A stretch of DNA of 54,589 nucleotides from assembly GCF_003611635.1 (NCBI RefSeq), contig NZ_RAVZ01000013.1, forward strand, positions 1 to 54,589, given 5' to 3'. A program made the translations under genes and the position numbers. The first letter of the stretch is position 1, and each line of letters starts with the position of its first letter. Source of the stretch: Corallococcus terminator (GTDB taxonomy: Bacteria > Myxococcota > Myxococcia > Myxococcales > Myxococcaceae). Shown here piece after piece: positions 8,165 to 33,437 of the stretch. The notes beneath the pieces are model-generated. The model saw nothing but the letters and a program-made list of their open reading frames with translations. It did no database searches and had not been told where the DNA came from.

Positions 8165-9289
8165 CTACTTGCTCACCGCGATGGACTTCCGGAAGAGCGC
8201 CAGGCTGTAGACGAAGAACCCCACGCCCACCGCGCTCACCATCAGGAACTGGCGCCAGACCGCCTCCAGCCCACCGCCGCGGTAGATGATGACCTGCGAG
8301 AAGCTGACGAAGTGCCGGGCAGGCAGCAGGTACGTGACATACTGCAACCACTTCGGCTGGCTTTCGACGGGCGTACTCCCGCCCGAAAGCAGCATCAGCA
8401 CGAGGACCACGAGGATGATGAGCAGCGCGAACTGCGCCATCGACCGTGAAATCGTCCCCAGGAAGATGCCGAGCGCCGTGGCGAAGAACAGGTAGAGCAC
8501 GACGCCGACGAACCACAGCACCACCGAGCCGGCGAACGGCACCTTCAACACCATGTGCACGACCAGGAGGAGCGAAGCCCCGGTCGCGACGAGGATCACC
8601 AGGCCGTTGGCCCAGACCTTCGCCATCGCGATCTCGAACGAGGTCAGCGGCATCACCAGCAGGTGCTCCAGCGTTCCGTGCTCGCGCTCGCGGATGACCG
8701 CGGCGCCCGTCAGCACGACGGTCAGCAGGGTTATCTGGTTGATGATGGCCACCACGCTCTTGAACCAGGACGAGACCCCGTTGGGGTTGAAGAGCTTGCG
8801 AACGACCAGGTTGACGGGCTTCGGGCCTGTCTCCTCCGTGCGCCTGAGAAAGGAGGAGACCCGGTCGTTGATGATGTTCTTGATATAGCCAGAGCCGATG
8901 CCCGCCTGCTGCATGGCCGTCGCGTCGATGTTCACCTGGATGTCCGGGTTGCGCCCCGCGCGAAGGTCATGCTCGAAGCGGGGCGGAATCACGACGACGA
9001 ACATGAACCGGCCCCTGTCCATGTTCGCCTGCACCTCGTCGGGGGAGATGAGCTCCGGCAGCTTGAAGCGGGGCGGATAGAAGGCGTTGAGCAACTCCTT
9101 GGACAACGCGGACCCGTCCTCGTCGGCGAAGGCAATCGATGCGTTGTTCACCTCGCTCGAAGTCCCCGTGGCCTGGACATAGATGGCCAGGGTGAACGCA
9201 TAGACGACGAACACGACCAGCACCGCGTCGCTCAGCAGGCTGCGAAGCTCCTTGAGCCCGAGCCACAGAATGTTCAGCAGCGAGTTCAC
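8165..9289 (-). CDS. yhhJ: ABC-2 type permease, YhhJ-like
   Basis: 374 residues. GTG 9289 is preferred to the upstream in-frame start at 9349 because AGGAG lies eight bases before it and it sits two bases after the rbbA stop. One N-terminal helix (SLLSDAVLVVFVVYAFTL) is followed by a long periplasmic domain (about 45-180), then five helices with the family segment REREHGTLEHLLVMPLTSFE and the late LLPARHFVSFSQVIIYRG. That topology is the ABC2_membrane_3 fold of YhhJ. It would pair with the permease half of RbbA to form the inner-membrane channel of the exporter encoded just upstream. Substrate unknown. Confidence 0.88.
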   Translation of the reverse strand: MNSLLNILWLGLKELRSLLSDAVLVVFVVYAFTLAIYVQATGTSSEVNNASIAFADEDGSALSKELLNAFYPPRFKLPELISPDEVQANMDRGRFMFVVVIPPRFEHDLRAGRNPDIQVNIDATAMQQAGIGSGYIKNIINDRVSSFLRRTEETGPKPVNLVVRKLFNPNGVSSWFKSVVAIINQITLLTVVLTGAAVIREREHGTLEHLLVMPLTSFEIAMAKVWANGLVILVATGASLLLVVHMVLKVPFAGSVVLWFVGVVLYLFFATALGIFLGTISRSMAQFALLIILVVLVLMLLSGGSTPVESQPKWLQYVTYLLPARHFVSFSQVIIYRGGGLEAVWRQFLMVSAVGVGFFVYSLALFRKSIAVSK

Positions 9290-9291
9290 CG

Positions 9292-12105
9292 CTATTTCTC
9301 CTGCTTTCTCAATCCAATGACACTGATGGCCAGGAGGACGGGGACGCACGCGGCCAGGAAGGCGACATCCCGCATGAGGAGGCCCGGCCCCAGTCCCTTG
9401 GTGAAGGCGCCCAGGCTGGCGTGCATGTAATAGGAGGCCGGCCAGATGGAACCGACGAGGCCGGCCCCGCCCTGCAGCGTGGAGACGGGCTGCAACAGGC
9501 CGGAGAACTGGATGGTCGGCACGATGGTCAGGATGGCCGTGACGAAGACGGCCGCGACCTGGCTGCCCGTGAAGGTCGACGTCACCATCCCGATGCCGGT
9601 CGTCGCCGCGACGTAGAACAGCGTGCAGAGCATCAACGTCAGGAAGCTGCCCTTGATGGGAACACCGAAGACGACCAGCGCCAGGGCCGTCAGGATGAAG
9701 AAGTTGGCCATGCCGATGACGACGTAGGGCAACTGCTTTCCCAGCAGGTACTCCAGCCTGCCCGTGGGCGTGACATAGAAGTTGATGATCGACCCCAGCT
9801 CCTTCTCACGCACGATGCTGACCGTCATGAGAATCGCCGGGATCAGGAGCAGCAGCAGCGCCGGGACGCTCGGCACGATGGAATAGACGCTCTCGAACGT
9901 CGGGTTGTACAAGAAGCGCTCTTCGATGTTGGCCGTGTATTTCTGCGCGCCGGCCCACTGGAAGCCGCTCGCGGGATCCCGCAGCATCCGGTTGTGGACC
10001 CCCTGGACGTATTGTTGAACGGTGTCGCCACGGAAGGTCATGGCGCCGTCCACCTGCGCCAGCACCTCCGGTCCGGAGCCCCGGCGGAAATCCAGACCGA
10101 AACGCGGCGGAATCTCCAGCACCATCGAGACATCGTCCGACTGGAGCCGGCGCAGCGCCTCGTCCGCGGATTGGGCTGGCGGCGTCGGCGCGAAATAGGG
10201 TTTCGCCGCGCCGAACTGTTCAATGTACGCGCGACTCTCGGGTGACTGGTCCATGTCCAGCGCGGCATAGCGGATGTTTTCGACGTCGGTCGTGATTCCA
10301 AAGCCGAAGACGAGCATCAGCAGCGCCGAGCCGACAAAGGCAAACGCCAGCCGGACCCTGTCGCGGAGGATCTGGATGGTCTCATTGTGGGCGTATGCGA
10401 GCATCCGGCCAAGACGCAGCCGGAGGCCGGCCCGGTCCGCTCGTCGCACGGCCGGGGGCCGCGGGGGTGGCGGGGCTTCGGGCGCGCGAGCGGGAGTCGC
10501 GTCCCTGGGCGGCGTGTCCTTGCTTTCGGCGCGTGCCTTTTCGGCGATGGCATCTTCCATGTAGCCGATGAAGGCGGTCTCCAGGCTGTCTGCGTTCCGT
10601 GCCTCGATGAGCTTCTGGGGGGAGTCCGCCGCCAGCACCCTTCCCGCGTTCATGAGGGAGATGCGGTCGCAGCGCATCCCCTCGTTCATGAAGTGCGTCG
10701 TCACGAAGATGGTGACGCCCTGCTTGCGCGACAGATCGATCAGCAGCTCCCAGAAGCTGTCCCGGGCGACCGGATCGACCCCCGACGTGGGCTCGTCCAG
10801 GATGAGGATCTGCGGCCCGTGCAGCACGGCGACGGCCAGCGAGAGACGCTGGCGCAGGCCCATGGGCAGGTCCCCGGCCAACGCGTCCAGGTGCGCGCGC
10901 AGTCCGAACCGCTCGACCAGCTCCTCGATGCGCGCCTTCGCCTTGTCTGGCGGCAGATGGTAGAGCCGCGCATGCAGGACCAGGTTCTGCCGGACGCTCA
11001 GCTCGCCGTAGAGCGAGAACGCCTGCGTCATGTAGCCCAGGTTCTTGCGCACCTCCATGCTCCCGGCATCCACGGAGCTGCCGAAGAGCTTCGCCGTCCC
11101 CTCCGTGGGGGGAAGCAGGCCCGTCAGCATCTTCATGGTCGTGGACTTGCCGCAGCCGTTGGAGCCCAGGAAGCCGAAGATCTCACCCCGCTCAATCGAC
11201 AAGGTGACGTGGTCCACGGCGGTGAAGGTGCCGAAGCGGCACGTCAGCCCGTCGGCCTCGATGGCCAGTTCCGCCTTGCCCGGCGGACGGGGCGGGATGG
11301 TGACCTCCTTGTGCCCCCTGCGCTTCTCCTCGGGCAGCAGCGCGATGAAGCAATGCTCCAGGTCCCGGGTCCCCGTGCGCTCCATCAGCTCCGCGGGCGT
11401 CCCTGTCGCCAGCACGCGCCCCGCGTCCATGGCGACGATCCAGTCCCACTGCTGCGCTTCGTCCATGTAGGCCGTGGAGATGATGACGCTCATGCCGGGG
11501 CGCCCGGTGCGAATCTCGTCGATGAGGCTCCAGAACTGCCGCCGGGAGAGCGGGTCCACGCCGGTGGTGGGCTCGTCGAGGATGAGCAGGTCCGGGTCGT
11601 GCACCAGCGCGCCGCACAGCCCCACCTTCTGCTTCATTCCGCCGGAGAGCTTGCCGGCGGGGCGCTCCGCGAACTTCCCCAGTCCCGTGGCTTCGAGCAG
11701 CTCCGGGACGCGCACCTTGCGCTCCTCGGGCGACAGCCCGAAGAGCCGGGCCATGAAGTCGACGTTGTCGTAGACGCTGAGCTCCAGATAGAGGTTCTTG
11801 CCCAGCCCCTGAGGCATGTACGCGATCCGCGGCCCCACCGCGCGCCGGTGCCGGGCATCGGCGATGTCCCCGTCCAGGACCGTCACCCTCCCCTGCTGCA
11901 TCTTCTTGGAGCCGGCGACCAGGGCCATCAGCGTCGACTTGCCAACGCCGTCCGGCCCCACGATGCCCACCATGATGCCGGTGGGAACGTCGAGCGAGAT
12001 GCCGTCGAGCGCGACCACCTTGCCGTAGCGGTGGGTCACGTCCTGGATGGAGACCACGAGCCTGGAGGAGCCGCCCGGCGATTCTGGAGACGCGGATGAG
12101 ACCAT
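9292..12105 (-). CDS. rbbA: RbbA-type fused double ABC ATPase and ABC-2 permease
   Basis: 937 residues from ATG 12105, which has GGGAGGG seven bases upstream; a GTG at 12126 is possible. Two complete ATPase domains come first. The first has Walker A GPDGVGKST, signature LSGGMKQKV and LLILDEPTTGVDP; the second has GSNGCGKST, the looser signature LPMGLRQRL and ILILDEPTSGVDP. After a Pro-rich linker (about 535-560) a permease half follows with one helix, a large periplasmic domain and five C-terminal helices including RPSTLQ-type loops and REKELGSIINFYVTPTG. This order is that of E. coli RbbA (YhiH). It is first named as a ribosome-bound ATPase there, but in this cluster an exporter role is the simplest reading. 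Confidence 0.92.
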   Translation of the reverse strand: MVSSASPESPGGSSRLVVSIQDVTHRYGKVVALDGISLDVPTGIMVGIVGPDGVGKSTLMALVAGSKKMQQGRVTVLDGDIADARHRRAVGPRIAYMPQGLGKNLYLELSVYDNVDFMARLFGLSPEERKVRVPELLEATGLGKFAERPAGKLSGGMKQKVGLCGALVHDPDLLILDEPTTGVDPLSRRQFWSLIDEIRTGRPGMSVIISTAYMDEAQQWDWIVAMDAGRVLATGTPAELMERTGTRDLEHCFIALLPEEKRRGHKEVTIPPRPPGKAELAIEADGLTCRFGTFTAVDHVTLSIERGEIFGFLGSNGCGKSTTMKMLTGLLPPTEGTAKLFGSSVDAGSMEVRKNLGYMTQAFSLYGELSVRQNLVLHARLYHLPPDKAKARIEELVERFGLRAHLDALAGDLPMGLRQRLSLAVAVLHGPQILILDEPTSGVDPVARDSFWELLIDLSRKQGVTIFVTTHFMNEGMRCDRISLMNAGRVLAADSPQKLIEARNADSLETAFIGYMEDAIAEKARAESKDTPPRDATPARAPEAPPPPRPPAVRRADRAGLRLRLGRMLAYAHNETIQILRDRVRLAFAFVGSALLMLVFGFGITTDVENIRYAALDMDQSPESRAYIEQFGAAKPYFAPTPPAQSADEALRRLQSDDVSMVLEIPPRFGLDFRRGSGPEVLAQVDGAMTFRGDTVQQYVQGVHNRMLRDPASGFQWAGAQKYTANIEERFLYNPTFESVYSIVPSVPALLLLLIPAILMTVSIVREKELGSIINFYVTPTGRLEYLLGKQLPYVVIGMANFFILTALALVVFGVPIKGSFLTLMLCTLFYVAATTGIGMVTSTFTGSQVAAVFVTAILTIVPTIQFSGLLQPVSTLQGGAGLVGSIWPASYYMHASLGAFTKGLGPGLLMRDVAFLAACVPVLLAISVIGLRKQEK

Positions 12106-12130
12106 GGCTGAGCCCTCCCGGGTCACCGGG

Positions 12131-13141
12131 CTAATGGGATTCGGATTCAGCCGTGATGACGTTCTGCAATTTGGTAGGCCAGGTGGCGGAAGGGTCCACC
12201 TTCACGTAGCCGACGCCGCGAATGCCTGTCTTGATGCGCTCGACGTAGCGGCTGGCCAGCTCCCGTGGGACCTGGAGCTTCAGTCGGAACACCAGCTTCT
12301 CCCGCTCGCTCTTGGTCTCCACCTGCTTGGGCGTGAACTGCGCTTCCGGGGACACGAAGGAGACATACCCGGGGATGGAACGGTCGGGCTCGAAGTCGGC
12401 CGTGAGGCGCGCTTCGGAGCCAAGCTTCACGCGGGCGGCCTCGCTCGCCGGGAGGAAGATCTCCATGTAGACGTCTTCCAGGTTCACCAGCGTCAGCGCC
12501 GGTCCGCCGGGCGCGAGCACCTCGCCCGGCTCGGCGAGGCGATAGAGGACGCGTCCCGTCACGGGCGACTTGAGCGTCGCGTCGGCGATGCGCGTCTGGA
12601 CCGTCGCCGCATTGGCTCGCGCGACCTCGATCTCCTCCCTGGAGGTCTTCAGCGTGGCTTCCGCTTCCGCCAGGGCGGCCCGGGTGGTCTCCACCTGGCT
12701 TGTTCGAACGTCCAGATCCCGCTGCGAACCGGCCCCCTGCGCCACCAGCCTTCGGGCGCGCTCGGCTTCGATGGTGGCAAGCTGTATCTCACTCTTCTGC
12801 TTGACGATCCCCGCCTGGGCCACCGCCAGCTTCTCCTCCGTGGCCGCGAGGTTCGCGTTGGCTTCCGCCAGGCTGGACTCCAGCGTGGTGGTGTCCAACC
12901 GCACCAGCACCTGACCCGGCCTGACGAGGTCGCCCTCGTTGACAAGGATTTGCTTCACCCGCAGGGGCTCCTTGGCGGCGACATCGGCCAGCTTGGCCTC
13001 GATGCGGCCATTGCCTGAGACGATTCCCTCCGGCAGCGCGGATTTCTTTCCCTTCCAATACTTGAAGCCAATGAACACGGCGATCGCGATGGCGATCAGT
13101 CCAATGGCCCACTTGATCTTCCCCTTCGGGTACTTGGGCAT
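12131..13141 (-). CDS. yhiI: HlyD-family periplasmic adaptor, YhiI-like
   Basis: 336 residues: a short cytoplasmic lead, one membrane anchor (WAIGLIAIAIAVFIGFKYW, about 11-29), a biotinyl-lipoyl-like half motif (VKQILVNEGDLVRPGQVLVRLD), a long Ala/Glu-rich coiled-coil hairpin at about 85-185, then the second lipoyl half (ATLKSPVTGRVLYRLAEPGEV) and a beta-barrel region ending in KTGIRGVGYVKV. It links the inner-membrane exporter to the outer-membrane channel. It is the second gene in the minus-strand operon, ten bases after the channel gene and 25 bases before rbbA. Confidence 0.9.
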   Translation of the reverse strand: MPKYPKGKIKWAIGLIAIAIAVFIGFKYWKGKKSALPEGIVSGNGRIEAKLADVAAKEPLRVKQILVNEGDLVRPGQVLVRLDTTTLESSLAEANANLAATEEKLAVAQAGIVKQKSEIQLATIEAERARRLVAQGAGSQRDLDVRTSQVETTRAALAEAEATLKTSREEIEVARANAATVQTRIADATLKSPVTGRVLYRLAEPGEVLAPGGPALTLVNLEDVYMEIFLPASEAARVKLGSEARLTADFEPDRSIPGYVSFVSPEAQFTPKQVETKSEREKLVFRLKLQVPRELASRYVERIKTGIRGVGYVKVDPSATWPTKLQNVITAESESH

Positions 13142-13151
13142 GGCGGACTCT

Positions 13152-14768
13152 CTATTGCTTTTCCGGCTGCGAGCTGTGCTTGACTTCCTGCGTCCGCGGC
13201 TTCGACAACATGTCGCCCCAGTCGGTCCGCTTCTCCATCTCGCTTTGCATGGGTTCAGGCACGACGGGTTGATCCCGGCGGACCTCCCAGCCCCCGCCCA
13301 GCGCCTTGTAGAGGGCGACCAGGTTCGTGGCGATGGAGGAGTTCGTCTGGACCAGGTTGTTCTGCTGCTGCAAGAGCGAGCGTTGCGCGTCCAGCACGCG
13401 CTGGTAGTCCACGGCGCCTTCCCGGTACTGCACCACGGCGAGCTCCACCGACCGCTGCGCGGCTTTCACAGCGGCTTGCTGGAACGCCATGGCCTTCTGG
13501 GCATTGACGTAGCCCGTCAGGGCATCCGCCACCTCCTGGGCCGCCTTGAGCACCGTGTTGCGGTAGTTGACGAGCAATTGCTGGAAGCGCGCGTCTTCGA
13601 TCCGCACGCCATTCTTCAGGCGGCCGTAGTTCAGGAAGGGAAAGACAATCCTGGGGCCAATGGAATACACCAGGCTGCCAAGGGAGAAGAGATTGCCGGA
13701 GGACGTGCCGCTGGTGCTCGCCTCCAGCCCTATCGTCCCGAAGAGGGAGAAGCTTGGATAGAGGTCCGCCTCGGCGATGCCGATCCGGGCACACTGCGCG
13801 GCGGCGAACAGCTCGGCGCTGCGGACATCCGGCCGCCGCCGCAGGATCTCCGCCGGCATGCCGACGGCCACCGTCGCGGGCGCCAGCGGAATCTGCTTGG
13901 GGCCCGCCAGCAGGGCCTCCACGGCGCCCGTGGGCTGGCCCAGGAGCGTGCTCAGGGCGTTTCGGGCCTGCTCCAGCCCGCCCTCCAGTTGGGGGATGGT
14001 GGCCCGGGTGCTCTCCAGCAGGGTCGCGGCCTGCGCCACATCGAGCTCCGAGGTGGCACCGTTGGTGAAGCGCGAGTCCGCGATCCGGAAGCCCTCCTCC
14101 TGAATCCTGACGTTCTCCCGGGCCTGCTCGATGAGCACCTCGTACGTCCGGACCAGGACGTAGGTTCGCGCCACCTCCGCGTTGAGCGCGACGAGCGAGG
14201 ATTGGTAGTCCGCCACCGACGCGAGCAGGGCGGCGGCCCCCGACTCCACGCCCCGCCGGTACTTGCCCCAGAAATCCACCTCCCACAGCGCGTCGAAGCC
14301 CAACTGGTATTCCAGGTAGTGGCGGTCGAGGGAGCCGAGATTGGTCAGATCCACCAGGTTGGCCGCAGCTGAGTTCTCACTGCGTCCCACCGCTGCGGCG
14401 CTGCCGGTGGCCACCTGGATCTGCGGAAACTGCTGGCCAGTGAGGACGCCCAACTGCGCGCGCGCCTCCACGATCCTCAGACCCGCGACCTGCAGCGGCA
14501 GGTTCTGCCGGTAGGCGACCTCGACGAGGCGGTCGAGCGCTGGATCGCCAAACGACTTCCACCATTGGGTGTCGACCGCTGCCTGCGTCGAAAGTCGTGG
14601 GTCGCCCTGGGTGCGCCACTCCTTGACCACCTCGACCTCGGGCTTCGTGAAGTTGGGACCTACCGTGCATCCGGAGAGCGCCGTCAGGACGCCGAGCAGC
14701 GGCCACGCGCCGACGAAGGGTGCACGCCCCGGGTTCATCCCCTGCCTGGTGCTGTCCATCCCCAGCAT
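13152..14768 (-). CDS. Outer-membrane efflux channel lipoprotein (NodT/OprM-type, TolC superfamily)
   Basis: 538 residues from ATG 14768, supported by GAGG eight bases upstream; in-frame ATG at 14738 is an alternative that gives a more compact leader. The leader ends with lipobox LTALSGC, followed by the family's usual TVGPNFTKPEV. Two OEP repeats with long amphipathic helices follow: DPALDRLVEVAYRQN opens the first, and RRRPDVRSAE and RIGIAEADLYPSFSLFG mark the middle. It forms the outer-membrane duct that completes the HlyD-RbbA-YhhJ machine. The first gene of the operon; no regulator gene is adjacent. Confidence 0.9.
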   Translation of the reverse strand: MLGMDSTRQGMNPGRAPFVGAWPLLGVLTALSGCTVGPNFTKPEVEVVKEWRTQGDPRLSTQAAVDTQWWKSFGDPALDRLVEVAYRQNLPLQVAGLRIVEARAQLGVLTGQQFPQIQVATGSAAAVGRSENSAAANLVDLTNLGSLDRHYLEYQLGFDALWEVDFWGKYRRGVESGAAALLASVADYQSSLVALNAEVARTYVLVRTYEVLIEQARENVRIQEEGFRIADSRFTNGATSELDVAQAATLLESTRATIPQLEGGLEQARNALSTLLGQPTGAVEALLAGPKQIPLAPATVAVGMPAEILRRRPDVRSAELFAAAQCARIGIAEADLYPSFSLFGTIGLEASTSGTSSGNLFSLGSLVYSIGPRIVFPFLNYGRLKNGVRIEDARFQQLLVNYRNTVLKAAQEVADALTGYVNAQKAMAFQQAAVKAAQRSVELAVVQYREGAVDYQRVLDAQRSLLQQQNNLVQTNSSIATNLVALYKALGGGWEVRRDQPVVPEPMQSEMEKRTDWGDMLSKPRTQEVKHSSQPEKQ

Positions 14769-14989: not shown

Positions 14990-16507
14990 TCAATGCAGGG
15001 TGCCGTCCTGCTCGAGGAGATCGGCGGGATCCGTCACCACGAGGTCCGCGCCATGGCGGCGCAGCTCGGCGGGCCGACCCAGCCGGTCGACGCCGATGAC
15101 ATAGGCGAAGTGGGCCGCACGTGCGGCCGCGACGCCGGCAGGCGTGTCCTCGAAGACGACCGCTTCCTCGGACCCGACACCGAGGGCACGGGCGGCCGCG
15201 AGATAGACTTCGGGGGGCTGCGTGGCGCCGAGCCGCGCGTCGAAGAGGTCCAGGATGCCAGCGGACTGGAGCAGTTCGGCGCAGTGCCTGCTCGCGGAGA
15301 CGACCGCGGTCCGAAGTCCCGCGGCGCGCACCGCCTGGACGTAGCCGACCGTTCCCTCATACGTCTCCACCTGCTCCTGCCGGAGCAGTTCGACCAGGAA
15401 CTCCGCCTTGCGGTCGTTCAGCGCGTGAACCGTGCTCTCCGGCAGCGCGATGCCGCGGGCATCTAGAAACGCATGGAGTCCTTCCAGGGGTGGCTTGCCG
15501 TCGAAGTAGTGGCAGGTGTCGCGCACCAGATCGAAGGGGATGAAGGGCTGCCCCGAGGCTCGCGCGCGCCGCCGCAGATAGTAGTCGCACACCTGCTTCC
15601 AGGCCCGGGCGTGGAGGCTGGAGGTCTGGGCGAGGACGCCATCGAGACCGAAGAGGCAGGCGCGTGTGCGGGGCGGAAGGCCCAGCTTCGTCCGGGCGAA
15701 GGGCGGCTGGCCCAGGATGAAGGCGTCGACCGCGTAGGCGAACCCGTCCTCATCGTTGGTGCGCGTGACGTGGCGTGCGAAGCGTTGGACCTCCGCGCTG
15801 GCGTTGCCCATGGCGAGGCCAAGGCCGGCGGTGGTCAGCATGGGCAGATCGTTGGCCATGTCCCCGATGGCCGCGATCTGCTCGATGGGAATCGCAAGGA
15901 GGCGCGCGGCCTCACGCACGACCATTCCCTTGTTCGCTTCAGGATGCGTGACGTCGACATAGTAGGGCGTCGAACGTGCCGCCGACGCCTCGGTGCCCAG
16001 TCGCAGGGAGAGCTCGGCCTCGCAGCGCGCGACCCGCTCGGTGTCCTCGCTCACCCCGACGAGCTTGATGGGGGCGTTGAGCACGCCGTGCAGGTCCGCG
16101 ATGACGACCGGGTCGAACCCGACGTTGCTCCTCTCTCTGGCCACGCGGAAGGCCTCGGGGTCGCGGAGGAACCAATCCGCCCCCTGGTATACCCAGACAT
16201 CCAGGCCCGCCTGGAGCATGAAATCGACGGCCTGCCTGGCGATGGCGGGAGGAATGGTCCGCTGCTCCAGCACCGTCGTGAGATCGGATTTGACATACAC
16301 GCCGCCGTTGAAGGCAGCCACGGGGTCGGTGAGATCCAGCGCGGCCACCAGCCCTGCCATCCCGCGCGGCGGTCGCCCGCTCGTGACGGTGAACTGGATG
16401 CCGCTGGCGCGCAGCCGGGCGACGGCTTCGCGGGTTCGCGCGGTGACGGCCTTGTCCCGCGTCACCAGCGTCCCGTCGATGTCCGCGATGAGCAACTTGA
16501 TGGTCAT
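14990..16507 (-). CDS. Tandem HAD protein: Cof-type sugar phosphatase fused to beta-PGM-like domain
   Basis: 505 residues from ATG 16507, with GGAGG five bases upstream. The N-terminal half (1-270) is a complete Cof/HAD-IIB hydrolase: LIADIDGTLV holds both Asp, TVTSGRPPRGM is motif II, and IGDMANDLPML is motif IV. The C-terminal half (280-505) has the shape of beta-phosphoglucomutase-like HADs with helical cap, TAVVSASRH and VVFEDTPAGVAAA. However motif I reads LFGLDGVLA: the nucleophilic Asp is Gly287 (GGT), so this domain should be unable to form the aspartyl-phosphate. It lies divergent from the aldolase-phosphoketolase-acetate kinase operon and probably acts on a sugar phosphate of that pathway. 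Confidence 0.87.
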   Translation of the reverse strand: MTIKLLIADIDGTLVTRDKAVTARTREAVARLRASGIQFTVTSGRPPRGMAGLVAALDLTDPVAAFNGGVYVKSDLTTVLEQRTIPPAIARQAVDFMLQAGLDVWVYQGADWFLRDPEAFRVARERSNVGFDPVVIADLHGVLNAPIKLVGVSEDTERVARCEAELSLRLGTEASAARSTPYYVDVTHPEANKGMVVREAARLLAIPIEQIAAIGDMANDLPMLTTAGLGLAMGNASAEVQRFARHVTRTNDEDGFAYAVDAFILGQPPFARTKLGLPPRTRACLFGLDGVLAQTSSLHARAWKQVCDYYLRRRARASGQPFIPFDLVRDTCHYFDGKPPLEGLHAFLDARGIALPESTVHALNDRKAEFLVELLRQEQVETYEGTVGYVQAVRAAGLRTAVVSASRHCAELLQSAGILDLFDARLGATQPPEVYLAAARALGVGSEEAVVFEDTPAGVAAARAAHFAYVIGVDRLGRPAELRRHGADLVVTDPADLLEQDGTLH

Positions 16508-16651
16508 GGCTGCCTCCAGCACCCGCCCGCTTGCTGCGGCAGCCGCACGCCGGGCGTTGTCGGTGACGGCTGGGTCCAGGGTTCAAGATGGCATCGCAAC
16601 AGGGCGGCACCATCCTGCCCGGCGCTTCAAGGCAATCCCATGGCCGAGCGC

Positions 16652-16681
16652 CGCCCCGCCAGTTGTCGGCGCAACGGGGCG
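16652..16681. promoter_or_regulatory. Dyad in the HAD/aldolase divergent region
   Basis: CGCCCCG (16652-16658) and CGGGGCG (16675-16681) form a seven-base inverted repeat 33 bases before the aldolase ATG. The 207-base divergent region must hold both promoters. This is the only evident symmetric candidate for an operator. Confidence 0.25.
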
Positions 16682-16714
16682 CCCTCAGGTTCTTGCGATG
16701 GATGGGAGGAACAC

Positions 16715-17809
16715 ATGCCGACGATGCCAGGGCTCGACCAGACCGCGCGAGCCATCGTTGCTGATGGAAAGGGCATCCTGGCGGCGGACGAGACAGTCTC
16801 CACGATCACGAAGCGCCTGACCGCGCGCGCGATCGAGTCGACCTCGGACAGCCGCCGCGCCTACCGCGAGATGCTCTTCAGTGCGCCCGACATCGCCGCG
16901 TTCATCGGCGGTGTCATCCTGCAGGACGAGACGATCCGGCAGGACAGCTCGACAGGCATCCCGCTGCTGGAGTTGCTGGTGGGTCGCGGCATCATCCCCG
17001 GCATCAAGGTCGACACCGGCGTCCACCCCCTGGCCGGCGCGCCGGGAGAGTTCGTCGCCGAAGGGCTCGACGGGCTCCGCGCGCGGCTCGAGGAGTACCA
17101 CGAGCTGGGTGCGCGCTTCGCCAAGTGGCGCGCGGTCTTCATCATCCGCGACGGGCTGCCGACCGCGAAGTGCATCCACGCGAATGCGCACGCGCTCGCG
17201 CGCTACGCCGCCCTCTGCCAGGAGCAGGGCCTGGTGCCCATCGTGGAGCCTGAGGTCCTGATGGAGGGAGCGCACGCGCTCGAGCAGTGTGAGGACGTGA
17301 CGGGGCGCGTGCTGCAAGCGGTCTTCAACGAACTCTTCGACGCGCGGGTGTCCCTGGAAGGGATGTTGCTCAAGCCGAACATGGTCACCGCGGGCCTCCG
17401 TTGTGCGAGGCAGGCGTCGGTGGACGAGGTGGCGGAGGCGACGTTGCGCGCCCTGACGCGCCATGTGCCGCCCGCGGTCCCCGGGGTCGTCTTCCTTTCC
17501 GGTGGACAAGACGCTGTCCTGGCCACCGAGCACCTCAACGCCATCAATGCGCTGGGCGGCCCGAAGCCCTGGAAGCTGAGCTTCTCCTACGGACGCGCGC
17601 TGCAGGACGAGGCGATGGAGGTCTGGCAGGGCCGGCGTGAGCACGTGCCCGCCGCCCAGCGGATGTTCCACCACCGCGCCGGGTGCGACAGCGCGGCGGC
17701 CCTGGGCAGCTACAGCGGCGACATGGAGGGCGAAGCGGGCTTCGCCGGGGCGACGGAGCCTCCCTCCATCCACGACGAACCCGACTCAACACTCCACACC
17801 CAACACTGA
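16715..17809 (+). CDS. fba: Class I fructose-bisphosphate aldolase
   Basis: 364 residues. ATG 16715 follows GGGAGGA by four bases; the long upstream open frame is a shadow of the HAD gene. Eukaryotic-type class I aldolase: [15 protein letters not shown] near the start, [47 protein letters not shown], and the Schiff-base lysine in [10 protein letters not shown] (Lys220). The C-terminus has [17 protein letters not shown] and a Tyr in SYSGDMEGE. It converts fructose 1,6-bisphosphate to triose phosphates in the cytoplasm, or the reverse. It leads an operon with phosphoketolase, 13 bases apart, so it may balance the hexose-phosphate supply to that enzyme. Confidence 0.93.
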
Positions 17810-17822
17810 TGGGAGACATGTC

Positions 17823-20294
17823 ATGGCACATCCGACAGGGACCGGATCATCCGAGGAGTCTGGGTCGTCATGGTCCGCCAGGGAGCAAGGCGAGGGGCCC
17901 TCCACGCCGGCCAGGGAGCGGACCCAGGGAGGTGGACCGCTCACCACCAGGGAAGTGGAGTTGATGAACGCGTACTGGCGCGCGTGCAACTACCTCGCGG
18001 TGGGGATGATCTACCTCCAGGACAACCCGCTGCTGCACAGGCCCCTGGTGCCCACGGACGTGAAGCATCGGCTGCTCGGCCACTGGGGCGCGAGCCCGGC
18101 GCTCTCGTTCGTCTGGGTCCATCTGAACCGCCTCATCGTCGAACAGGGGCTCGACGTCGTCTTCGTGGCCGGGCCGGGCCACGGCGCCCCGGGCGTGCTC
18201 GGACCGGCGTATCTCGAGGGCACCTATTCAGAGGTCTATCCGGACAAGAGCCCGGATGAGGAGGGGATGCGGAAGTTCTTCAAGCAGTTCTCCTTCCCCG
18301 GTCACATCGGCAGCCACGTCACCCCGGAGACGCCGGGCTCCATCCATGAAGGCGGCGAGCTTGGCTACAGCCTCTCCCACGCGTACGGCATGGCCTTCGA
18401 CAATCCCGACCTCATCGTCGCCTGCGTCGTGGGTGACGGCGAAGCCGAGACCGGGCCGCTCGCGACGGCCTGGCATTCGAACAAGTTCCTCAACCCCGCG
18501 CGGGACGGCGCCGTGCTGCCCATCCTGAACCTCAACGGGTACAAGATCGCCAACCCGACCATCCTCGCCCGCATCAGCCCGGAGGAGCTCGAGTCCCTGT
18601 TCGTCGGCTACGGCTACAAGCCCTACTTCGTCGAGGGCAGCGACCCGGCCCAGATGCACCAGAAGATGGCGGAGACCCTGGAGCGCGCCGTCGAGGAGAT
18701 CCGCGCCCTGCAGAAGACGGCACGGCAGACGGACACCCCGACGCGTCCGCGCTGGCCCATGATCGTCCTGCGCTCACCCAAGGGCTGGACCGGTCCGAAG
18801 GAGCTGGATGGGCACAAGCTGGAGGGCTCCTGGCGCTCACACCAGGTCCCCTTCGCCAACGTGCGGGAGAACCCGTCGCACCTGAAGGCGCTCGAGGACT
18901 GGATGCGCAGCTACCGGCCCGAGGAGCTGTTCGACGCGCAGGGCAGACTGAATCCGGAGGTCAGGTCGCTTGCACCCAAGGGGTCGCGGCGGATGAGCGC
19001 GAACCCACACGCCAACGGCGGCCTGCTTCGCAAGACGCTCAGGCTGCCCGACTTCCGCGACTATGCGGTCAAGGTCGGCACGCGCGGCACCACGCTGCAT
19101 GAGAACACGAAGCCCCTGGGCGAGTTCCTGCGCGACATCATGCGCGACAACCCGACGAACTTCCGCGTCTTCGGCCCGGACGAGACCGCCTCGAACCGGC
19201 TCCAGGCCATCTACCAGGTGAGCAAGAAGGCCTGGATGGCGAACCTGTTGCCAGAGGACCTCGACGGGGGCGAGCTCGCGCGGGACGGCCGCGTCATGGA
19301 GATGCTGTCGGAGCACACGCTGCTCGGCTGGCTCGAAGGGTATCTGCTCACCGGGCGCCACGGCCTCTTCCACACGTATGAGGCGTTCGCCCACGTCATC
19401 GACTCCATGTTCAACCAGCACGCCAAGTGGTTGGACATCAGCAAGAACCACGTGAGCTGGCGGGCGCCCGTCGCCTCGGAGAACATCCTGCTCTCCTCGA
19501 CGGTGTGGCGTCAGGACCACAACGGGTTCTCACATCAGGACCCGGGGTTCATCGACCTGGTGACCAACAAGTCCGGCTCGGTCACGCGCATCTACCTGCC
19601 TCCGGACGCCAACACGCTGCTGGTGGTGGCGGACCAGTGCCTGCGCAGTACCGACTGCGTCAACGTCATCGTCGCGGACAAGCAGAAGCACCTGCAGTTC
19701 ACCAGCATCGACGAGGCCGTCTCCCACTGCGCCAAGGGGTTCGGCATCTGGAAGCGGGCCAGCACGGACCAGGACGCGGAGCCGGATGTCATCATGGCCA
19801 GTTGCGGCGACGTCGCGACGCAGGAGGCCCTGGCCGCCGCCTCCATCCTGCGCGCGCGCGCGCCGAACCTGAAGCTGCGCTTCGTCAACATCGTCGACCT
19901 GTTCAAGCTCCAGTCGTCGGCGGACCATCCGCACGGGTCCACCCAACGGGAGATCCAAAGCCTGTTCCCGCCGGGCAAGCCGATCATCTTCAGCTTCCAC
20001 GGCTACGCCTCGCTCATCCACAAGCTCGCCTATCGCTTCATCAACCACGAAGACCTGCACGTGCATGGCTACCGGGAGAAGGGCAACATCAACACGCCCT
20101 TCGAGCTGGCGATCCTGAACGAGACGTCCCGCTTCCACCTGGTCATCGACGTCATCGATCGCGTGACGGGGATGCAAGCAAAGGCAGGACACCTGAAGGA
20201 GGAGATGCGCAACGCCATCCTCGACAACCTGGCCTACGCGCACGAGCACGGCAAGGATCGTCCTGAAATCGCCGACTGGACCTGGCCGGACTGA
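17823..20294 (+). CDS. xfp: Xylulose-5-P/fructose-6-P phosphoketolase
   Basis: 823 residues from ATG 17823. A Gly/Ser/Arg-rich lead of about 35 residues precedes the conserved start [19 protein letters not shown]. It is a thiamine diphosphate enzyme that splits xylulose 5-phosphate or fructose 6-phosphate to acetyl-phosphate plus a triose or tetrose phosphate. Family signatures are complete: [79 protein letters not shown] and [15 protein letters not shown]. The acetyl-phosphate product feeds the acetate kinase encoded 13 bases downstream. Confidence 0.96.
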
Positions 20295-20307: not shown

Positions 20308-21540
20308 ATGGCGCGGCGGACGTTCAAGACGGGTGGCGTGCCGGACGCGCTGCTCGTGCTCAACGCCGGCTCTTCGAGCCTGAAGTTCTCCGTCTTCCTC
20401 GATGAGGAGCCCCTCCGCCTCCTCCTGCGGGGGGAGTTCGAGGAGCTGTCGACCCGTCCGCGGTTCGTCGCGCACGCGGACGGTGCCGTCATCAGCCAGA
20501 AGGATTGGGCCCCCGGAACGCAGCTCGGGTACACGGGCGCCACCGACTTCCTGTTCGCCTGGGGTCGGGAGGGCGTCCTCGGCGGGCACCGGATCGCGGC
20601 CACCGGCCACCGGGTGGTCCATGGCGGCATGCGCTTCTCCGGGCCCGCCCTCGTCGACGCGGCGACCCTGGCGGAGCTGGAAGCGCTCATTCCGCTGGCG
20701 CCGTTGCACCAGCCCCACTGCGTGGAGGCGATTCGCGCCGTCACACGGACGGCGCCAGCGGTGCCGCAGGTCGCATGCTTCGACACCGCGTTCCACCGCA
20801 CCCAGCCCCCCGTGGCCCAGGCCTTCGCCCTGCCCCGCCGCTATGCCGACGAGGGCGTCCGCCGCTACGGCTTCCATGGCCTCTCCTACGAATACATCGC
20901 CTCCACGCTGCCGCGCACGGCGCCCGGGGCCGCCGAAGGACGCACGGTGGTGGCGCACCTGGGGAACGGCGCGAGCATGTGCGCCCTGCTCCGGGGACGA
21001 AGTGTGGCGACGACCATGGGCCTCACCGCCCTGGATGGGCTCATGATGGGCACCCGCTGCGGCGCCCTGGATCCCGGAGTCCTGCTCTACCTGATGGACC
21101 GGTACGGCATGGACGCGCGCGCGCTGGAGCGGCTCCTCTACCAGCAATCCGGTCTGCTGGGCGTCTCCGGCGAATCCAGCGACATGCGCGAGCTGCTCAG
21201 CGCCTCCAGCGCCGCCGCCGCTGAAGCGCTGGAGTTGTTCGTCTATCGCATCCATCGTGAGCTGGGCTCGCTCGCGGCGGCGCTGCACGGCCTGGACGCC
21301 GTGGTGTTCACGGGCGGCATTGGCGAGCACTCCGCGCCCATTCGCGAGCGGGTCTGTCGCGACGCGAGCTGGCTCGGGTTGGAGCTTGATGAGGAGGCCA
21401 ACGCTCGCGGAGGCCCCTGCATCACCCGGTCCGGCAGCCGCGTCTCCGCCTGGGTGATTCCCACGGATGAAGAGGCGATGATCGCCCTGCACACCCGGCG
21501 CGTGCTGAGCACGACTGGTCTCGCACCCGGGCCGCAGTGA
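20308..21540 (+). CDS. ackA: Acetate kinase
   Basis: 410 residues; ATG 20308 has GAGAGGGG about seven bases upstream. ASKHA-fold kinase that makes ATP and acetate from acetyl-phosphate. Key segments are LVLNAGSSSLKFSVF, ATGHRVVHGG, CFDTAFHRTQP, YGFHGLSYEYI with the catalytic His, VVAHLGNGASM, TTMGLTALDGLMMGTRCGALDP and VFTGGIGEHSA. It is slightly longer at the N-terminus than usual. It is the last gene of the aldolase-phosphoketolase operon, which gives a short route to extra ATP from hexose or pentose phosphate. Confidence 0.95.
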   Translation: MARRTFKTGGVPDALLVLNAGSSSLKFSVFLDEEPLRLLLRGEFEELSTRPRFVAHADGAVISQKDWAPGTQLGYTGATDFLFAWGREGVLGGHRIAATGHRVVHGGMRFSGPALVDAATLAELEALIPLAPLHQPHCVEAIRAVTRTAPAVPQVACFDTAFHRTQPPVAQAFALPRRYADEGVRRYGFHGLSYEYIASTLPRTAPGAAEGRTVVAHLGNGASMCALLRGRSVATTMGLTALDGLMMGTRCGALDPGVLLYLMDRYGMDARALERLLYQQSGLLGVSGESSDMRELLSASSAAAAEALELFVYRIHRELGSLAAALHGLDAVVFTGGIGEHSAPIRERVCRDASWLGLELDEEANARGGPCITRSGSRVSAWVIPTDEEAMIALHTRRVLSTTGLAPGPQ

Positions 21541-22487: not shown

Positions 22488-23765
22488 TCAGGCCAGGGGC
22501 TGGGACGCGGGGCCGTTCTTCAGCTCCTTGCGCACCGCCTCGCTGACGCGGTCGCGGACGACGTCCGCCATGCGCTCACGGAGCTCCTCGCCCACGCGAT
22601 CGCGGACGGCGGCCACGATGCTCTCGGTGTCGACCTGGCCGGGCCCCTGCGACTGGAAGCCGCCCATGGCCTGCTCACCGTACCCGCCGCGCATCGTCGG
22701 GCCCATCGAGGCCATCGACTCGCGGATGGCGTCAGCCATCCGCTCCTTCAGCGCCTCGTGCAGGTGCTCGCGGAGGTTCATGGACAGCCGCTCGTGGAGG
22801 GTGTCGACCAGGCGCCCGCGGAGCACCTCGGCCAGGCGCTCCGGGTCGATCTGGCCGACGCCCTGCCGCTGGACGCCCGCGAAGCCCATGGTGCGCTCGC
22901 TCATCCGGGTGCGCAGCTCATCGCCCAGCCGCTCGCGCAGCGTGTCGCGCATGCGCTCGCGCAGGCCGCTCTGGACGCGCTCGCGGATGCCGTCCGCGAT
23001 GCGCTCGCGGACGATGTCGGCGATGCGCTCCGGATCGATCTGGCCGTAGCCCTGCATCCGGCGCTCGGACAGCGCGGAGCGCAGCGTCTCCACCAGGCGC
23101 TCCTTCAGCGCCTCGCGGACGCGCTCGCGCACGGCGGCGTGAATCCGCTCGGACATGGTGTCGGCGAGCCGGGTGCGGATGGCGTCGGCGATGCGCTCGG
23201 AGTCCATCGGCCCGAAGCCCTCCATGCCCATCCGCCGCTCCATCATCGCGGTGCGCAGCGCATCCCCCAGACGCTCGCGCAGGGCGTCGCGGACGCGCTC
23301 GCGCACGACGTAGCCGAGCCTGTCGCGCAGGGCGTCCTCGAGGCTGTTGCGCACGCGCTCGGCGATGCGGGGCGTGTCGATCTGGCCCCCCTGCTGGAGG
23401 TTCATCATGTTCTCGGCCAGGGCGCCGCGCAGCGCTTCGCCCAGTCGCTCCCGGAGCACCTCGCGCACGCGCTCGTGCACGCCGCTGGTGATGCGCTCGC
23501 GGATGTTGTCGGTGAGGCGGTTGTGGACGGCGTCGGCGATCTGCTCCGCGTCGAACGGCTGCCCGCCACCCTCCCCCTGCTGCATGTTCATCGCGCGCTC
23601 GCTCAACACGCCGCGGACCGCTTCGCCGACGCGCTCACGAATCTCCATGCCGATCCGCTCCTCCAGCCCGGAGACGACGCGCTCGTGCACCGCGTCGGCG
23701 ATGCGGGCCTTGATGGCTTCACCAAACATCTGCTGTCCCTGCATGGGGAACTGTTCCTTGCTCAT
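22488..23765 (-). CDS. Octad-repeat helical protein, no family recognised
   Basis: 425 residues from ATG 23765, with AGGAGG seven bases upstream. No signal peptide or membrane helix. The protein is seven long helices (residues about 21-59, 75-121, 133-179, 191-237, 247-293, 310-351, 382-416) joined by Gly/Gln/Met/Pro linkers such as MQQGEGGGQPFD and GYGQIDPE. Within each helix the sequence repeats every eight residues as Arg-hydrophobic-x-x-x-hydrophobic-Arg/His-Glu; for example Arg falls at 247, 255, 263, 271, 279 and 287. Arg and Glu balance each other and there is no Cys or Trp. Likely a cytoplasmic structural, scaffold or polymer-binding protein. I know of no described family with this pattern. 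Confidence 0.85.
   Translation of the reverse strand: MSKEQFPMQGQQMFGEAIKARIADAVHERVVSGLEERIGMEIRERVGEAVRGVLSERAMNMQQGEGGGQPFDAEQIADAVHNRLTDNIRERITSGVHERVREVLRERLGEALRGALAENMMNLQQGGQIDTPRIAERVRNSLEDALRDRLGYVVRERVRDALRERLGDALRTAMMERRMGMEGFGPMDSERIADAIRTRLADTMSERIHAAVRERVREALKERLVETLRSALSERRMQGYGQIDPERIADIVRERIADGIRERVQSGLRERMRDTLRERLGDELRTRMSERTMGFAGVQRQGVGQIDPERLAEVLRGRLVDTLHERLSMNLREHLHEALKERMADAIRESMASMGPTMRGGYGEQAMGGFQSQGPGQVDTESIVAAVRDRVGEELRERMADVVRDRVSEAVRKELKNGPASQPLA
22518..23705 (-). repeat. Seven protein-level blocks, each of four to six octads
   Basis: Blocks lie at about 23705-23589, 23543-23403, 23369-23229, 23195-23055, 23027-22887, 22838-22713 and 22622-22518. The DNA echoes the pattern with recurring GCGCTCGCGGA-like 24-base periods but the copies differ, so selection appears to hold the protein pattern rather than recent duplication. 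Confidence 0.85.
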
Positions 23766-24376
23766 TGAGCTGCCTCCTGGCGCTGCGGATAGAGCGGCAG
23801 GTGAGAAGAGTCCCGGCCTGCTGCTCAAGGCGGACTGATAGAGCCAGACGCAGTCGGCGGATACAGGGCCCGGGTCCAGCGCGGGTGTTGGCGCGTGTCC
23901 CGCGAAGTGCCCTCGCTGGGCGGGCTGGACACGCGTGAGCATGAACCAGCGGACTGCGGTCCCCGGCTTCCGGGGATGGGAAAAAAATTGGAACACCGGA
24001 TGCGGGGGGAGTCCCCTGCCTGTCGAAGTGCGCACCCCCGGCAGCACGGGGGCGCGTGCCCGGGATCAGGGGAGTATCCGGCGCCTCGGCCCTCCGCACC
24101 GCGATCCTGTGGGCTGCGCCGCGCAGGGCGGCTCCCCTGGGGCGAAGGCTTTCACGCATCACGGAACCTCACTTGAAGAGCGGTCGCGCCATGCGGCCCT
24201 TCTCCCACGTTTCGGATGACCCTGGCCTGGGGCAAGGGAGGGCCCGTGGAGAGGAGAGAAAGAAGAGGCGCTCCCGCCGGATGCTGTCCCTGGACCACGA
24301 ACCCTGACAGTCGAGCATCACCAATATTCCTGCTGCGCAGGCGTCTACAGGGCACCCTGAGAGGAAGGGCCTTCGA
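23766..24376. other. 611-base divergent intergenic region
   Basis: No gene can be supported here on either strand. It separates the octad-repeat gene from a lipoprotein gene on the other strand and must hold both promoters. It contains a run of seven A at about 23981-23987, a GC dyad at 24031-24056 and otherwise unremarkable GC-rich sequence. TATCCG at the minus-strand position about 30 bases before ATG 23765 is a weak -10 candidate. Confidence 0.6.
24031..24056. promoter_or_regulatory. Ten-base inverted repeat in divergent region
   Basis: CGCACCCCCG (24031-24040) and CGGGGGCGCG (24047-24056) pair at nine of ten positions around a six-base loop. Could be an operator or a transcription barrier; nothing decides. 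Confidence 0.3.
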
Positions 24377-30722: not shown

Positions 30723-33437
30723 ATGGACCCGAAAACGAGCCTCCCGGGCAAGACGCACCACTACGTGCCCACGCCCTTCCCCGAGTCCAGGGCCTTCCCC
30801 TGGGATGAGCTGCTGGAGCCCACGCAGCGGGGGCTGTACGAGTTGCTGTCCTGGCTGGAGGCCGCCTGCGGATGCAGCCTGGGTGAGGGGAAGGTCCGGG
30901 ACGAGCACCTCTCCACCAGCCTGCTCATCTCCGGCCCCCGGGGCGCGGGGAAAACCACCGTCCTGCTCAGCGCCGTCCAGGCCCTGCGCGACTGGAGGGC
31001 GTTCCTCGGGCTGAAGCCAGGCGGGCGCCTGGGGGCGGAGACGCACGAGGCGGTGGCTTCGGGGCCGGAGGCGATGCGCAGGGACCTGTGCACGACGCTC
31101 GAGCGCATCGAGGGGCGCGTCGTCTGGCTGGAGCCGCTCGACCTGGAGCCGGTGCCCCCGGGCGCCAACCTCCTGGCCACCCTGCTGGTGCGCGTGCGCG
31201 CGGCCCTGGATGCGCCCCAGGAGGGCGCGTCCGCGCGAGGCGGGCATGGCAGGTGGTCCTCCTCCATCCTCGAGGAGAGCGCGGAGGAGGCCTGGGGAAA
31301 GCTGGATCACCTCATCCGGGATGCCTCGTTCATGTGGGAGGACAGCGCGTCGACCACCGACACACGCGCGCGCGCGGAGCAGCAGATCAAGGCCGCGGAG
31401 ATCTACGCCAACTTCCAGCAGCGCTTCGCGGGGGCCATGGAGAACGTGGCGAAGACGCTGTCCCTGCCCCGCTTCGGCACCGCCAGGGGGGAACAGGTCA
31501 TCCTCGTGCTGCCCATCGACAACGTGGACCGCAGCATCGAACACCTCCACAACATCGTGAAGCTCACCCGCATGGTGGCCAGCCCCCGGCTCTGGTTCGT
31601 GCTGGCCGCGGGCCACCAGGAGTTCCAGCTCTTCATGGAGCGCTCCTTCCAGAAGGAGCTCATCCTCTCCGGGCAGGCGGGGATCGGGGCCGTGGGCCAG
31701 GACGAGACGCTCTCCATCGCCCGGCGCCAGTCCGCCACCACCCTGCGCCGCGCGCTGCCCCCCAGCTACCGCATCAACCTGGGCCCCGTGGATCCCTACA
31801 AGGCATGGGACTTCCGCCCGCTGGGGGTGGAGGCGGAGGACGGAGCGCAGACGCTGGGCGGCCTGCTGGAGCAGCTCCGGCTGCCCTGCGCCCCGACGCG
31901 GGAGAAGACGCAGGTGCTGACCTCCTTCGCGGACCTCATCAACCTGGCGCCCCGGCTCTCCGACACGGTGAAGACGACCTACCGCCTGGCCACGCGGGAT
32001 GGGCGGGACGCGCCCCTGCGCAAGGTCATCCTCACCCCCGCGGGCAAGCTCGCCCTCCACCTGCCCGCGCGCACCCTGCAGGACCTCTGGCACGCCGCCC
32101 GGCGCGAACTCTGGAGCACCCGCGCCTCCTCGGAAGAGCCCTCCGTCGCGGATGGAGAGCGCACCGTCCGGGTGGTCACGGAGATGCTGCGCAACGCCAT
32201 TGACGAAAGCGACCTGCCGGCCTGGGCCAGCCAGCAGTTGAACAACCGCATCCTCCGGTATGACGAAAAGGGGCTCATCTTCCTGGACCTGACGGGCAAG
32301 CCGGTGCGCCGCTCCAAGCGGACCACCCTGTCGGACGTCCTGGAGTGGCCGCACGCGGGGCGACCGGGCAATGGCGCCGCGAAGACGGAGCAGCGGCTGC
32401 TCCTCAGCGAGCTGCACCTGCGGCACTTCCACGACGTGGTGCTGATGTTGAGCGACCTGGACCGGCCGGGCCACAGCGTGCCCCTGCCCGGCAACGTGAC
32501 CGGCTGGTTCATGCTGCTGCACGACGCGCTGATGCTGTTCGAACCGCCCCGGGTGCTGAACCTGGACGTGACGCCCTTCGAGATGAGCCCGGAGCTGGTC
32601 GTGACGATGCACGAGCTGTGGGTGGAGGCCGCGCCCCACGAACCGCTCGTCCAGGTGGAGTGCTGGTGGAGCCTTCCCACCTGGAAGACCTTCGTCGAGT
32701 TCGCCATCTTCACCGCGCAGTGGAAGGCGTTCCTGAAGCGGACGGCGGACGGGTTCTTCAAGGTCGACAACATGAAGGACTCGCGCATGAAGGTCGGCTC
32801 CCACCACCGCTTCATCCAGGCGGCCTGGGTGGAGAACATCTGCTCGGTGTCGGGGCGCAAGCTGGGTGGATGGGATTGGGGCGACGCACGCGACCGGGGG
32901 GTGGAGGCGGTGATCCTGGAGCAGGAGCGCGCCAGCGCGCTGGAGCCCTACGAGCAGCGGGTGCGCGGCACGGTGGCGAAGCTCGTGGAGGACATCCGGA
33001 CGAACAGCGTGGGCTCTGATCGGCTGTGGACGGCCCGGGTGTGGCTGCAGAACGCGCTGCCCCTGCTGGTGCTGCCGGAGTTCGCGCCGGCCCCCGCCCT
33101 CAGCGAGCTGCTGCGCTGGCAGTCCGGGGAGGCGGGCGAGAACGAGGACTGGGACGAACTGGTGGCCTACTGGGAGCACCATGGGCCCCGCCTGACGCGG
33201 CTGCGCGAGCAGATGGTGCGCGCCGCGGTGGGGCGCTCCGGCGCGTCCGAGGCGCTCCGCCGCCACCTGGGCACGGACGGAGGCCAGCTCACGGGCCTGT
33301 ACTACGACTGGCTCGACGCCGTGGTGCGGACGTGGTTCCGGGTCATGGACCAGGAGGGCGACCACCTGGAGCTGGAGGCGCTGCGCAGGGTGTCTCCCGT
33401 GCAGGACCTCCAGGCGGACCCAGGCCATGGGCACTGA
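30723..33437 (+). CDS. rdrA: RADAR-type P-loop NTPase RdrA
   Basis: 904 residues, cytoplasmic, no membrane helix. The first 60 residues lead into a P-loop NTPase core with Walker A GPRGAGKTT (Lys77) and Walker B VILVLPIDNVD (Asp266, Asp269), separated by a long helical insert as in KAP/STAND-like ATPases. WFVLAAGHQEFQLFMERSF resembles sensor-1 and the following helix. The remaining 550 residues are helical with no domain I can name. Its immediate partner is a deaminase-like gene that overlaps it by 11 bases, the gene pair of RADAR phage defence, where RdrA forms a ring that engages RdrB. Assignment rests on order, length and motifs, not alignment. Confidence 0.8.
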   Translation: MDPKTSLPGKTHHYVPTPFPESRAFPWDELLEPTQRGLYELLSWLEAACGCSLGEGKVRDEHLSTSLLISGPRGAGKTTVLLSAVQALRDWRAFLGLKPGGRLGAETHEAVASGPEAMRRDLCTTLERIEGRVVWLEPLDLEPVPPGANLLATLLVRVRAALDAPQEGASARGGHGRWSSSILEESAEEAWGKLDHLIRDASFMWEDSASTTDTRARAEQQIKAAEIYANFQQRFAGAMENVAKTLSLPRFGTARGEQVILVLPIDNVDRSIEHLHNIVKLTRMVASPRLWFVLAAGHQEFQLFMERSFQKELILSGQAGIGAVGQDETLSIARRQSATTLRRALPPSYRINLGPVDPYKAWDFRPLGVEAEDGAQTLGGLLEQLRLPCAPTREKTQVLTSFADLINLAPRLSDTVKTTYRLATRDGRDAPLRKVILTPAGKLALHLPARTLQDLWHAARRELWSTRASSEEPSVADGERTVRVVTEMLRNAIDESDLPAWASQQLNNRILRYDEKGLIFLDLTGKPVRRSKRTTLSDVLEWPHAGRPGNGAAKTEQRLLLSELHLRHFHDVVLMLSDLDRPGHSVPLPGNVTGWFMLLHDALMLFEPPRVLNLDVTPFEMSPELVVTMHELWVEAAPHEPLVQVECWWSLPTWKTFVEFAIFTAQWKAFLKRTADGFFKVDNMKDSRMKVGSHHRFIQAAWVENICSVSGRKLGGWDWGDARDRGVEAVILEQERASALEPYEQRVRGTVAKLVEDIRTNSVGSDRLWTARVWLQNALPLLVLPEFAPAPALSELLRWQSGEAGENEDWDELVAYWEHHGPRLTRLREQMVRAAVGRSGASEALRRHLGTDGGQLTGLYYDWLDAVVRTWFRVMDQEGDHLELEALRRVSPVQDLQADPGHGH

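Follow-up and report, generated by a model that had tools for sequence, protein, structure and literature searches.

Why would a soil bacterium keep, joined to an apparently live phosphatase, a second HAD domain in which the catalytic aspartate has been replaced? The question is raised by a gene of Corallococcus terminator in the window, the whole 54,589-nucleotide stretch of DNA analyzed here, from an assembly of 10.35 Mb in 863 contigs.

Domains and active site of the fused gene

The sequence-only reading had seen a tandem HAD protein that keeps DxDGT in its first domain, and Pfam and NCBIfam matches agree (Table 1). Pfam Hydrolase_3 matches residues 7–259 above its curated cut-off, and TIGR00099 (Cof) matches residues 6–259 with 167.2 bits against a cut-off of 137. 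Motif I of this N domain reads ADIDGT, and its seven key residues, D9, D11, T42, S43, K193, D216, and D220 (motifs DxD, T/S, K, and DxxxD), are present in 19/19 distinct fused sequences. The second half is matched by TIGR02009 (bPGM family) at residues 282–468 (4.5e-35) with 121.5 bits, under the 153.35-bit cut-off, and by TIGR01990 with 72.8 bits, under its cut-off of 189.4 bits. Motif I of this C domain is LFGLDGVLA, with Gly287 in the place of the nucleophile and Asp289 retained. The best named full-length matches to the fused protein are Corallococcus species. Four other HADs of the same genome have the motif-I DxD and the motif-III Lys. No promoter or terminator consensus was found in 16400–16800, a search that is uninformative for this organism.

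Table 1. Coordinates of the fused gene, its domains and altered positions, and the divergent neighboring cluster (positions in the window)
Feature	Position	Strand	Remarks
Fused two-domain HAD gene, 505 aa	14990..16507	−	ATG start 16507; TGA stop 14990–14992
N domain, residues 1–265, Cof-type HAD-IIB phosphatase	15713..16507	−	Pfam/NCBIfam; catalytic motifs intact; Z 34.2 to 3niw
Linker, residues 266–281	15665..15712	−	Model confidence lowest around 268–270
C domain, residues 282–498, degenerate bPGM-family HAD	15014..15664	−	TIGR02009 below cut-off; Z 25.6 to 8h5s
Gly287, nucleophile position (bPGM Asp8)	15647..15649	−	G17/S1/A1 in 19 fused; D 21/21 unfused
Pro340, bPGM Arg49 position	15488..15490	−	P12/S5/A1/T1 in 19 fused; R 21/21 unfused
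His408, bPGM Asn118 position	15284..15286	−	H 18/18 fused rows; N 19/19 unfused rows
Residues 427–430, shortened loop of catalytic Lys145	15218..15229	−	Alignment gap; Lys in 0/19 fused
Class I fructose-bisphosphate aldolase, divergent neighbor	16715..17809	+	NF033379; end from ORF list
Phosphoketolase	17823..20294	+	NF003617, above cut-off
Acetate/propionate kinase family	20308..21540	+	TIGR00016, above cut-off

The active site was compared between 21 unfused bPGM homologues and 28 fused sequences, of which 19 are distinct. The fused sequences come from Corallococcus and from one further genus of its family (below, the second genus), which includes two named Pyxidicoccus species; the fused protein of C. 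praedator equals that of another Corallococcus genome (G009) over the 490 residues compared. We take D8 of bPGM to be the nucleophile and K145 the catalytic lysine. In the unfused homologues, D8, D10, T16, H20, R49, K145, E169, and D170 are each present in 21/21, and the S114 position holds Ser in 15 and Thr in 6. Among the distinct fused sequences, the nucleophile position carries Gly in 17, Ser in one, Ala in one, and Asp in none. This confirms the missing nucleophile. Equivalents of R49 and K145 are found in 0/19, and in the full alignment the Lys-bearing loop (GKPAPD in relatives) is 10 columns shorter in the fused rows, or 5 in L041. A residual Lys in the C domain through another alignment was considered and rejected, both candidate columns lacking Lys in 19/19. 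The N118 equivalent is His in 18/18 distinct fused rows and Asn in 19/19 unfused rows, a count that leaves aside L081 and L082, the most divergent of the unfused rows. Retained are the equivalents of T16, H20, and S114 (19/19), the acid/base Asp D10 (17/19, with Glu in two), and the metal-site residues E169 (17/19) and D170 (18/19). Additional active-site losses are seen in L041 (D10 to E, D170 to S) and also in L016 and L018.

Searches of 195 genomes from the phylum (full-length matches, E ≤ 1e-55) and of 27 from the second genus (E ≤ 1e-40) gave no fusion in which the C domain is intact; in a plasmid collection, 0/209 matching records cover 80% of the query within a single region. In L. lactis bPGM, the distal phosphate is gripped by R49, S116, N118, and the backbone of K117, whereas S114 and A115 touch the transferring-group analogue (PMC9171722). 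The alterations in the C domain, as located by the alignment, hit the chemistry and the phosphate grip, not the fold. The substrate-binding role suggested earlier for this domain is disfavored for a phosphorylated substrate because phosphate-holding residues are among those lost; a regulatory part, its other suggestion, is still a candidate. The catalytic Asp, Lys145, and Arg49 that would make it a β-phosphoglucomutase are each found in 0/19, and the clade-wide loss of catalytic residues is combined with purifying selection, as befits a pseudoenzyme. At the level of sequence, we consider the C domain shown to be a pseudoenzyme, fixed and conserved, that lacks the nucleophile, the catalytic Lys, and the distal-site Arg or Asn. 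Such a domain is unable to make phospho-Asp and should hold sugar bisphosphates poorly.

An Asp codon (GAT) becomes Gly (GGT) by one base, and the replacement could in principle be a sequencing error or a private single-base mutation; the sequence-only reading had proposed the single change and had also named an error, or close relatives with Asp, as results that would speak against its view. None of the 19 distinct fused sequences has Asp there, and the agreement of separate genomes, including one with 98% identity (L005), excludes a read error. One base change does not suffice as an explanation: the Arg49, Asn118, and Lys145 equivalents have been lost too, and the whole fused clade is fixed for this state. 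We regard an error or private mutation as having a negligible probability.

Origin of the fusion and its genomic setting

Trees of the two domains each contain a single fused clade, with support of 100/99 for N and 99/96 for C. In a genome of the same order (G131), cof, pgmB, and GH65 genes are consecutive on one strand; cof and pgmB are read in different frames, and the stop of the first overlaps the start of the second by 8 nt, so that a small frameshift at this point would fuse them. An Acidobacteria MAG (L072) has cof tail to tail with pgmB–GH65, and further pgmB–GH65 pairs occur in G093, G098, G086, and six actinobacterial loci. An unfused bPGM homologue (E ≤ 1e-30) is present in 19 of 144 relatives, all 19 of which also have GH65; the two genes lie at most about 3 kb apart on the same contig in 18 of them and on separate contigs in G018. 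The active sites were inspected in the 12 of these 19 relatives with a fetched locus. GH65 without a bPGM match at this threshold occurs in six relatives (G017, G027, G058, G087, G106, and G136). GH65 was found in 0/16 fused genomes (15 relatives and C. terminator itself), with G157, G159, and G164 outside this test.

In the C tree, the G131 pgmB groups with other unfused pgmB (95/85), apart from the fusion, and in the N tree the placement of G131 is without resolution. The idea that both domains are nearest sisters to G131 was rejected, as the trees give it no support. G131 is therefore an example of this type of gene order and need not itself be the donor. Taken together, the relatives suggest a cof–pgmB–GH65 phosphorylase operon as the source of the C domain. 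We propose that the domain descends from pgmB of such an operon (GH65 being the disaccharide phosphorylase), that a small frameshift where cof and pgmB overlap would have joined the two genes, and that the mutase site may have decayed once GH65 was gone. The operon would have come first, followed by fusion, GH65 loss, and mutase-site decay, perhaps in that order.

A possible task of the N domain is suggested by its unfused Cof relatives, which are 38–51% identical. Within flanks of up to 8 kb, 27 of 31 such loci have at least one pentose-phosphate gene, a count that overstates independence, since Ancylobacter supplies 10 of the 31 and the query genes were drawn from these loci. With gene identities checked on representatives, the genes are G6PDH (25 loci), 6-phosphogluconate dehydrogenase (23), 6-phosphogluconolactonase (14), RpiA (12), and PGI (4). 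The loci without pentose-phosphate genes are L052, L054, L068, and L074; L072 was excluded from the 31 because it holds both domains, and GH65 was found at 0/31 within the flanks. The loci with zwf, gnd, pgi, pgl, or rpiA near the Cof gene (within L043–L080) belong to Pseudomonadota and Actinomycetota, and L044 carries a tandem pair of such Cof genes. L128 (G164) and L129 (G157) carry the fusion plus a separate Cof homologue, 46–47% identical to the N domain. In the window, the fused gene itself adjoins neither G6PDH nor 6-phosphogluconate dehydrogenase. Our best guess from these neighborhoods is that the N domain is a pentose-phosphate- or erythrose-phosphate-related phosphatase, and the unfused Cof lineage is possibly a bacterial pentose-phosphate proofreading phosphatase. 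As its motifs indicate, the N domain would form a phospho-Asp9 intermediate and then hydrolyze a sugar phosphate. By analogy to Pho13 and CpgA (PMC6449344), we hypothesize that it may proofread 4-phosphoerythronate.

The gene had been described as divergent from a phosphoketolase operon, and NCBIfam matches identify this as aldolase, phosphoketolase, and acetate kinase. At 13 other fused loci with flanks, nine of them the named contigs L034–L042, phosphoketolase is present in 13/13, aldolase in 12/13 (it is missing at C. interemptor L040), and acetate kinase in 8/13. In all 43 genomes searched from the two genera, the window-type phosphoketolase goes with the fused gene: 19 have both and 24 have neither. 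Those with both comprise 14/16 Corallococcus and 5/27 of the second genus, the two genes lying on one contig at most about 3 kb apart; the Corallococcus exceptions, G007 and G011, have only a phosphoketolase paralogue, 56–57% identical. Judged by this co-occurrence, the fused gene is shown to travel with phosphoketolase. The N domain may serve the aldolase–phosphoketolase module, perhaps by clearing a by-product, for example 4-phosphoerythronate, or excess sugar phosphate. A phosphoketolase paralogue (56–58%) occurs in 16/16 Corallococcus genomes searched, and the second phosphoketolase of C. terminator itself (G000:C158:10871-13234) is 57% identical to that of the window.

Other features of the window were also recorded. 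After the HAD gene on the same strand (8165–14768, −) follow genes for a TolC-type outer-membrane channel and an HlyD-type adaptor, both called by Pfam, and ABC exporter genes recognized by eye; the order after the fused gene looks similar in L034, L038, L040, and L041, not in L102. A 519-residue protein (22488–24047, −) consists of degenerate amphipathic repeats resembling RIADAVRERV, has no Pfam match above cut-off, and is encoded by DNA with short 24-nt tandem periods. Two adjacent large genes (30723–36213, +) resemble a divergent RADAR anti-phage pair, the second matching PADLOC RdrB (8.2e-34) and, under its cut-off, the Pfam adenosine deaminase profile, the first matching RdrA weakly (0.0004).

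Selection, predicted structure, and competing explanations

For 18 sequences, codon models gave ω values of 0.096 for the N domain and 0.121 for the C domain; fixing ω at 1 was about 393 log units worse for N and about 282 for C, differences that are approximate, as kappa was fixed at 2.5 in the ω = 1 runs. The 14 Corallococcus sequences gave 0.097 and 0.108, with ω = 1 for C about 205 log units worse (approximate likewise, kappa fixed at 4.0). NG86 dN/dS medians (149/153 pairs) are higher, at 0.29 for N and 0.37 for C, and we quote the codon-model values because these models allow for codon bias. Intact pgmB from the same family (8 genes) has an ω of 0.058. The dead C domain is clearly under purifying selection, near that of the live N domain and looser than that of intact pgmB. 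Its faster evolution compared with intact pgmB, together with the L041 losses, fits slow decay. This touches the main rival explanation, which we hold to be rather unlikely, namely that the C domain is functionless and kept only since its removal would destabilize the protein or since there has been too little time for its loss. The higher ω and the further losses in L041, L016, and L018 are in its favor, and the disappearance of the GH65 partner would give a reason for decay; however, the strong purifying selection along the domain argues against a relic, as does the absence of a truncated fused gene among full-length matches of the phylum search.

The predicted structure bears on the same point. 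An AlphaFold model of the fused protein, computed from a 49-row alignment (A1), has a mean pLDDT of 91 and a pTM of 0.65, with a weak linker at 268–270. The N domain superimposes on 3niw with Z 34.2 and rmsd 2.1 over 262 aligned residues, its fold Z against Cof HADs (3niw and YidA 1rkq) being 32–34. The C domain matches 8h5s (Rv3400 bPGM) with Z 25.6 and rmsd 4.1, 47% identical over 225 aligned residues, and L. lactis bPGM with Z of about 21.8, and has the bPGM fold with a helical cap. The C domain is predicted to fold well, and the weak interdomain linker does not suggest tight packing; both count against a domain retained merely as a relic.

To our knowledge, HAD hydrolysis is not expected without the first Asp. 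It is improbable that the C domain, no longer a mutase, acts as a sensor or second catalytic site, still binding a ligand such as a sugar without phosphate or catalyzing some unrelated reaction: the Thr16, His20, Ser114, Glu169, and Asp170 equivalents leave the pocket partly retained, but the nucleophile, Lys145, Arg49, and Asn118 equivalents are gone, and two of these, R49 and N118, are distal-phosphate contacts in L. lactis bPGM (PMC9171722). We favor, with moderate confidence, a live pentose-phosphate-linked phosphatase with a retained pseudoenzyme domain that would have a structural, docking, or regulatory role. Because selection keeps the domain, this role is likely to be stability, docking, or regulation, and the folded C domain would be kept as a non-catalytic module stabilizing, docking, or regulating the phosphatase. 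More tentatively, and with less conviction, we raise the possibility of a HAD-on-HAD pair in which the dead mutase domain is a dedicated regulatory or docking module, tying a pentose-phosphate proofreading phosphatase to the aldolase–phosphoketolase module.

Relation to known systems

The N domain shares the family cut-off, motifs, and fold of the Cof-type HAD-IIB sugar phosphatases (TIGR00099; 3niw, YidA 1rkq), but here it is joined to an inactive second HAD and adjoins a phosphoketolase module. In several bacterial groups, the Cof lineage has G6PDH and 6-phosphogluconate dehydrogenase genes as neighbors, and it is a good candidate for a bacterial pentose-phosphate proofreading phosphatase. 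Among known proofreading enzymes, CpgA is a GTPase and Pho13/PGP belongs to another HAD class. Their likeness to the N domain lies in the proposed role only, through the link to 6-phosphogluconate dehydrogenase and PGI, both of which are blocked in the 4-phosphoerythronate cascade that Pho13/PGP and CpgA proofread (PMC6449344).

The C domain shares fold and sequence with the bPGM family (TIGR02009; 8h5s Rv3400, L. lactis bPGM), but lacks the nucleophile, Lys145, Arg49, and Asn118 equivalents, scores below the family cut-offs, and has no GH65 partner. The locus offers a clean natural case of an enzyme turning into a pseudoenzyme: relatives display a likely ancestral-type operon, intact unfused homologues, the fusion, and the decay of the site, and the loss of the partner enzyme is a testable reason for the loss of catalysis. 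If the docking or regulatory reading is true, the birth of such a module through operon fusion, partner loss, and site decay would be traceable in living relatives.

In the open PMC literature, mostly without subscription papers, none of the papers listed on HAD pseudophosphatases and bPGM pseudoenzymes dealt with a Cof phosphatase that carries a dead bPGM domain, and the two papers listed for Corallococcus with phosphoketolase have titles on other subjects. In eukaryotic TPS/TPP proteins, some TPP HAD domains lack catalytic positions and are under selection (PMC1769515), and a docking role has been proposed for the SPP-like domain of plant SPS (PMC4493782). The likeness to the present protein is a HAD phosphatase-like domain within a sugar-metabolism fusion; the partner in TPS/TPP and SPS is a glycosyltransferase, whereas here it is a second HAD phosphatase, the protein is bacterial, and the dead domain is of the bPGM type. 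Inactive HAD domains in sugar-metabolism fusions are already known, and a dead bPGM domain on a Cof phosphatase is a variant of this theme.
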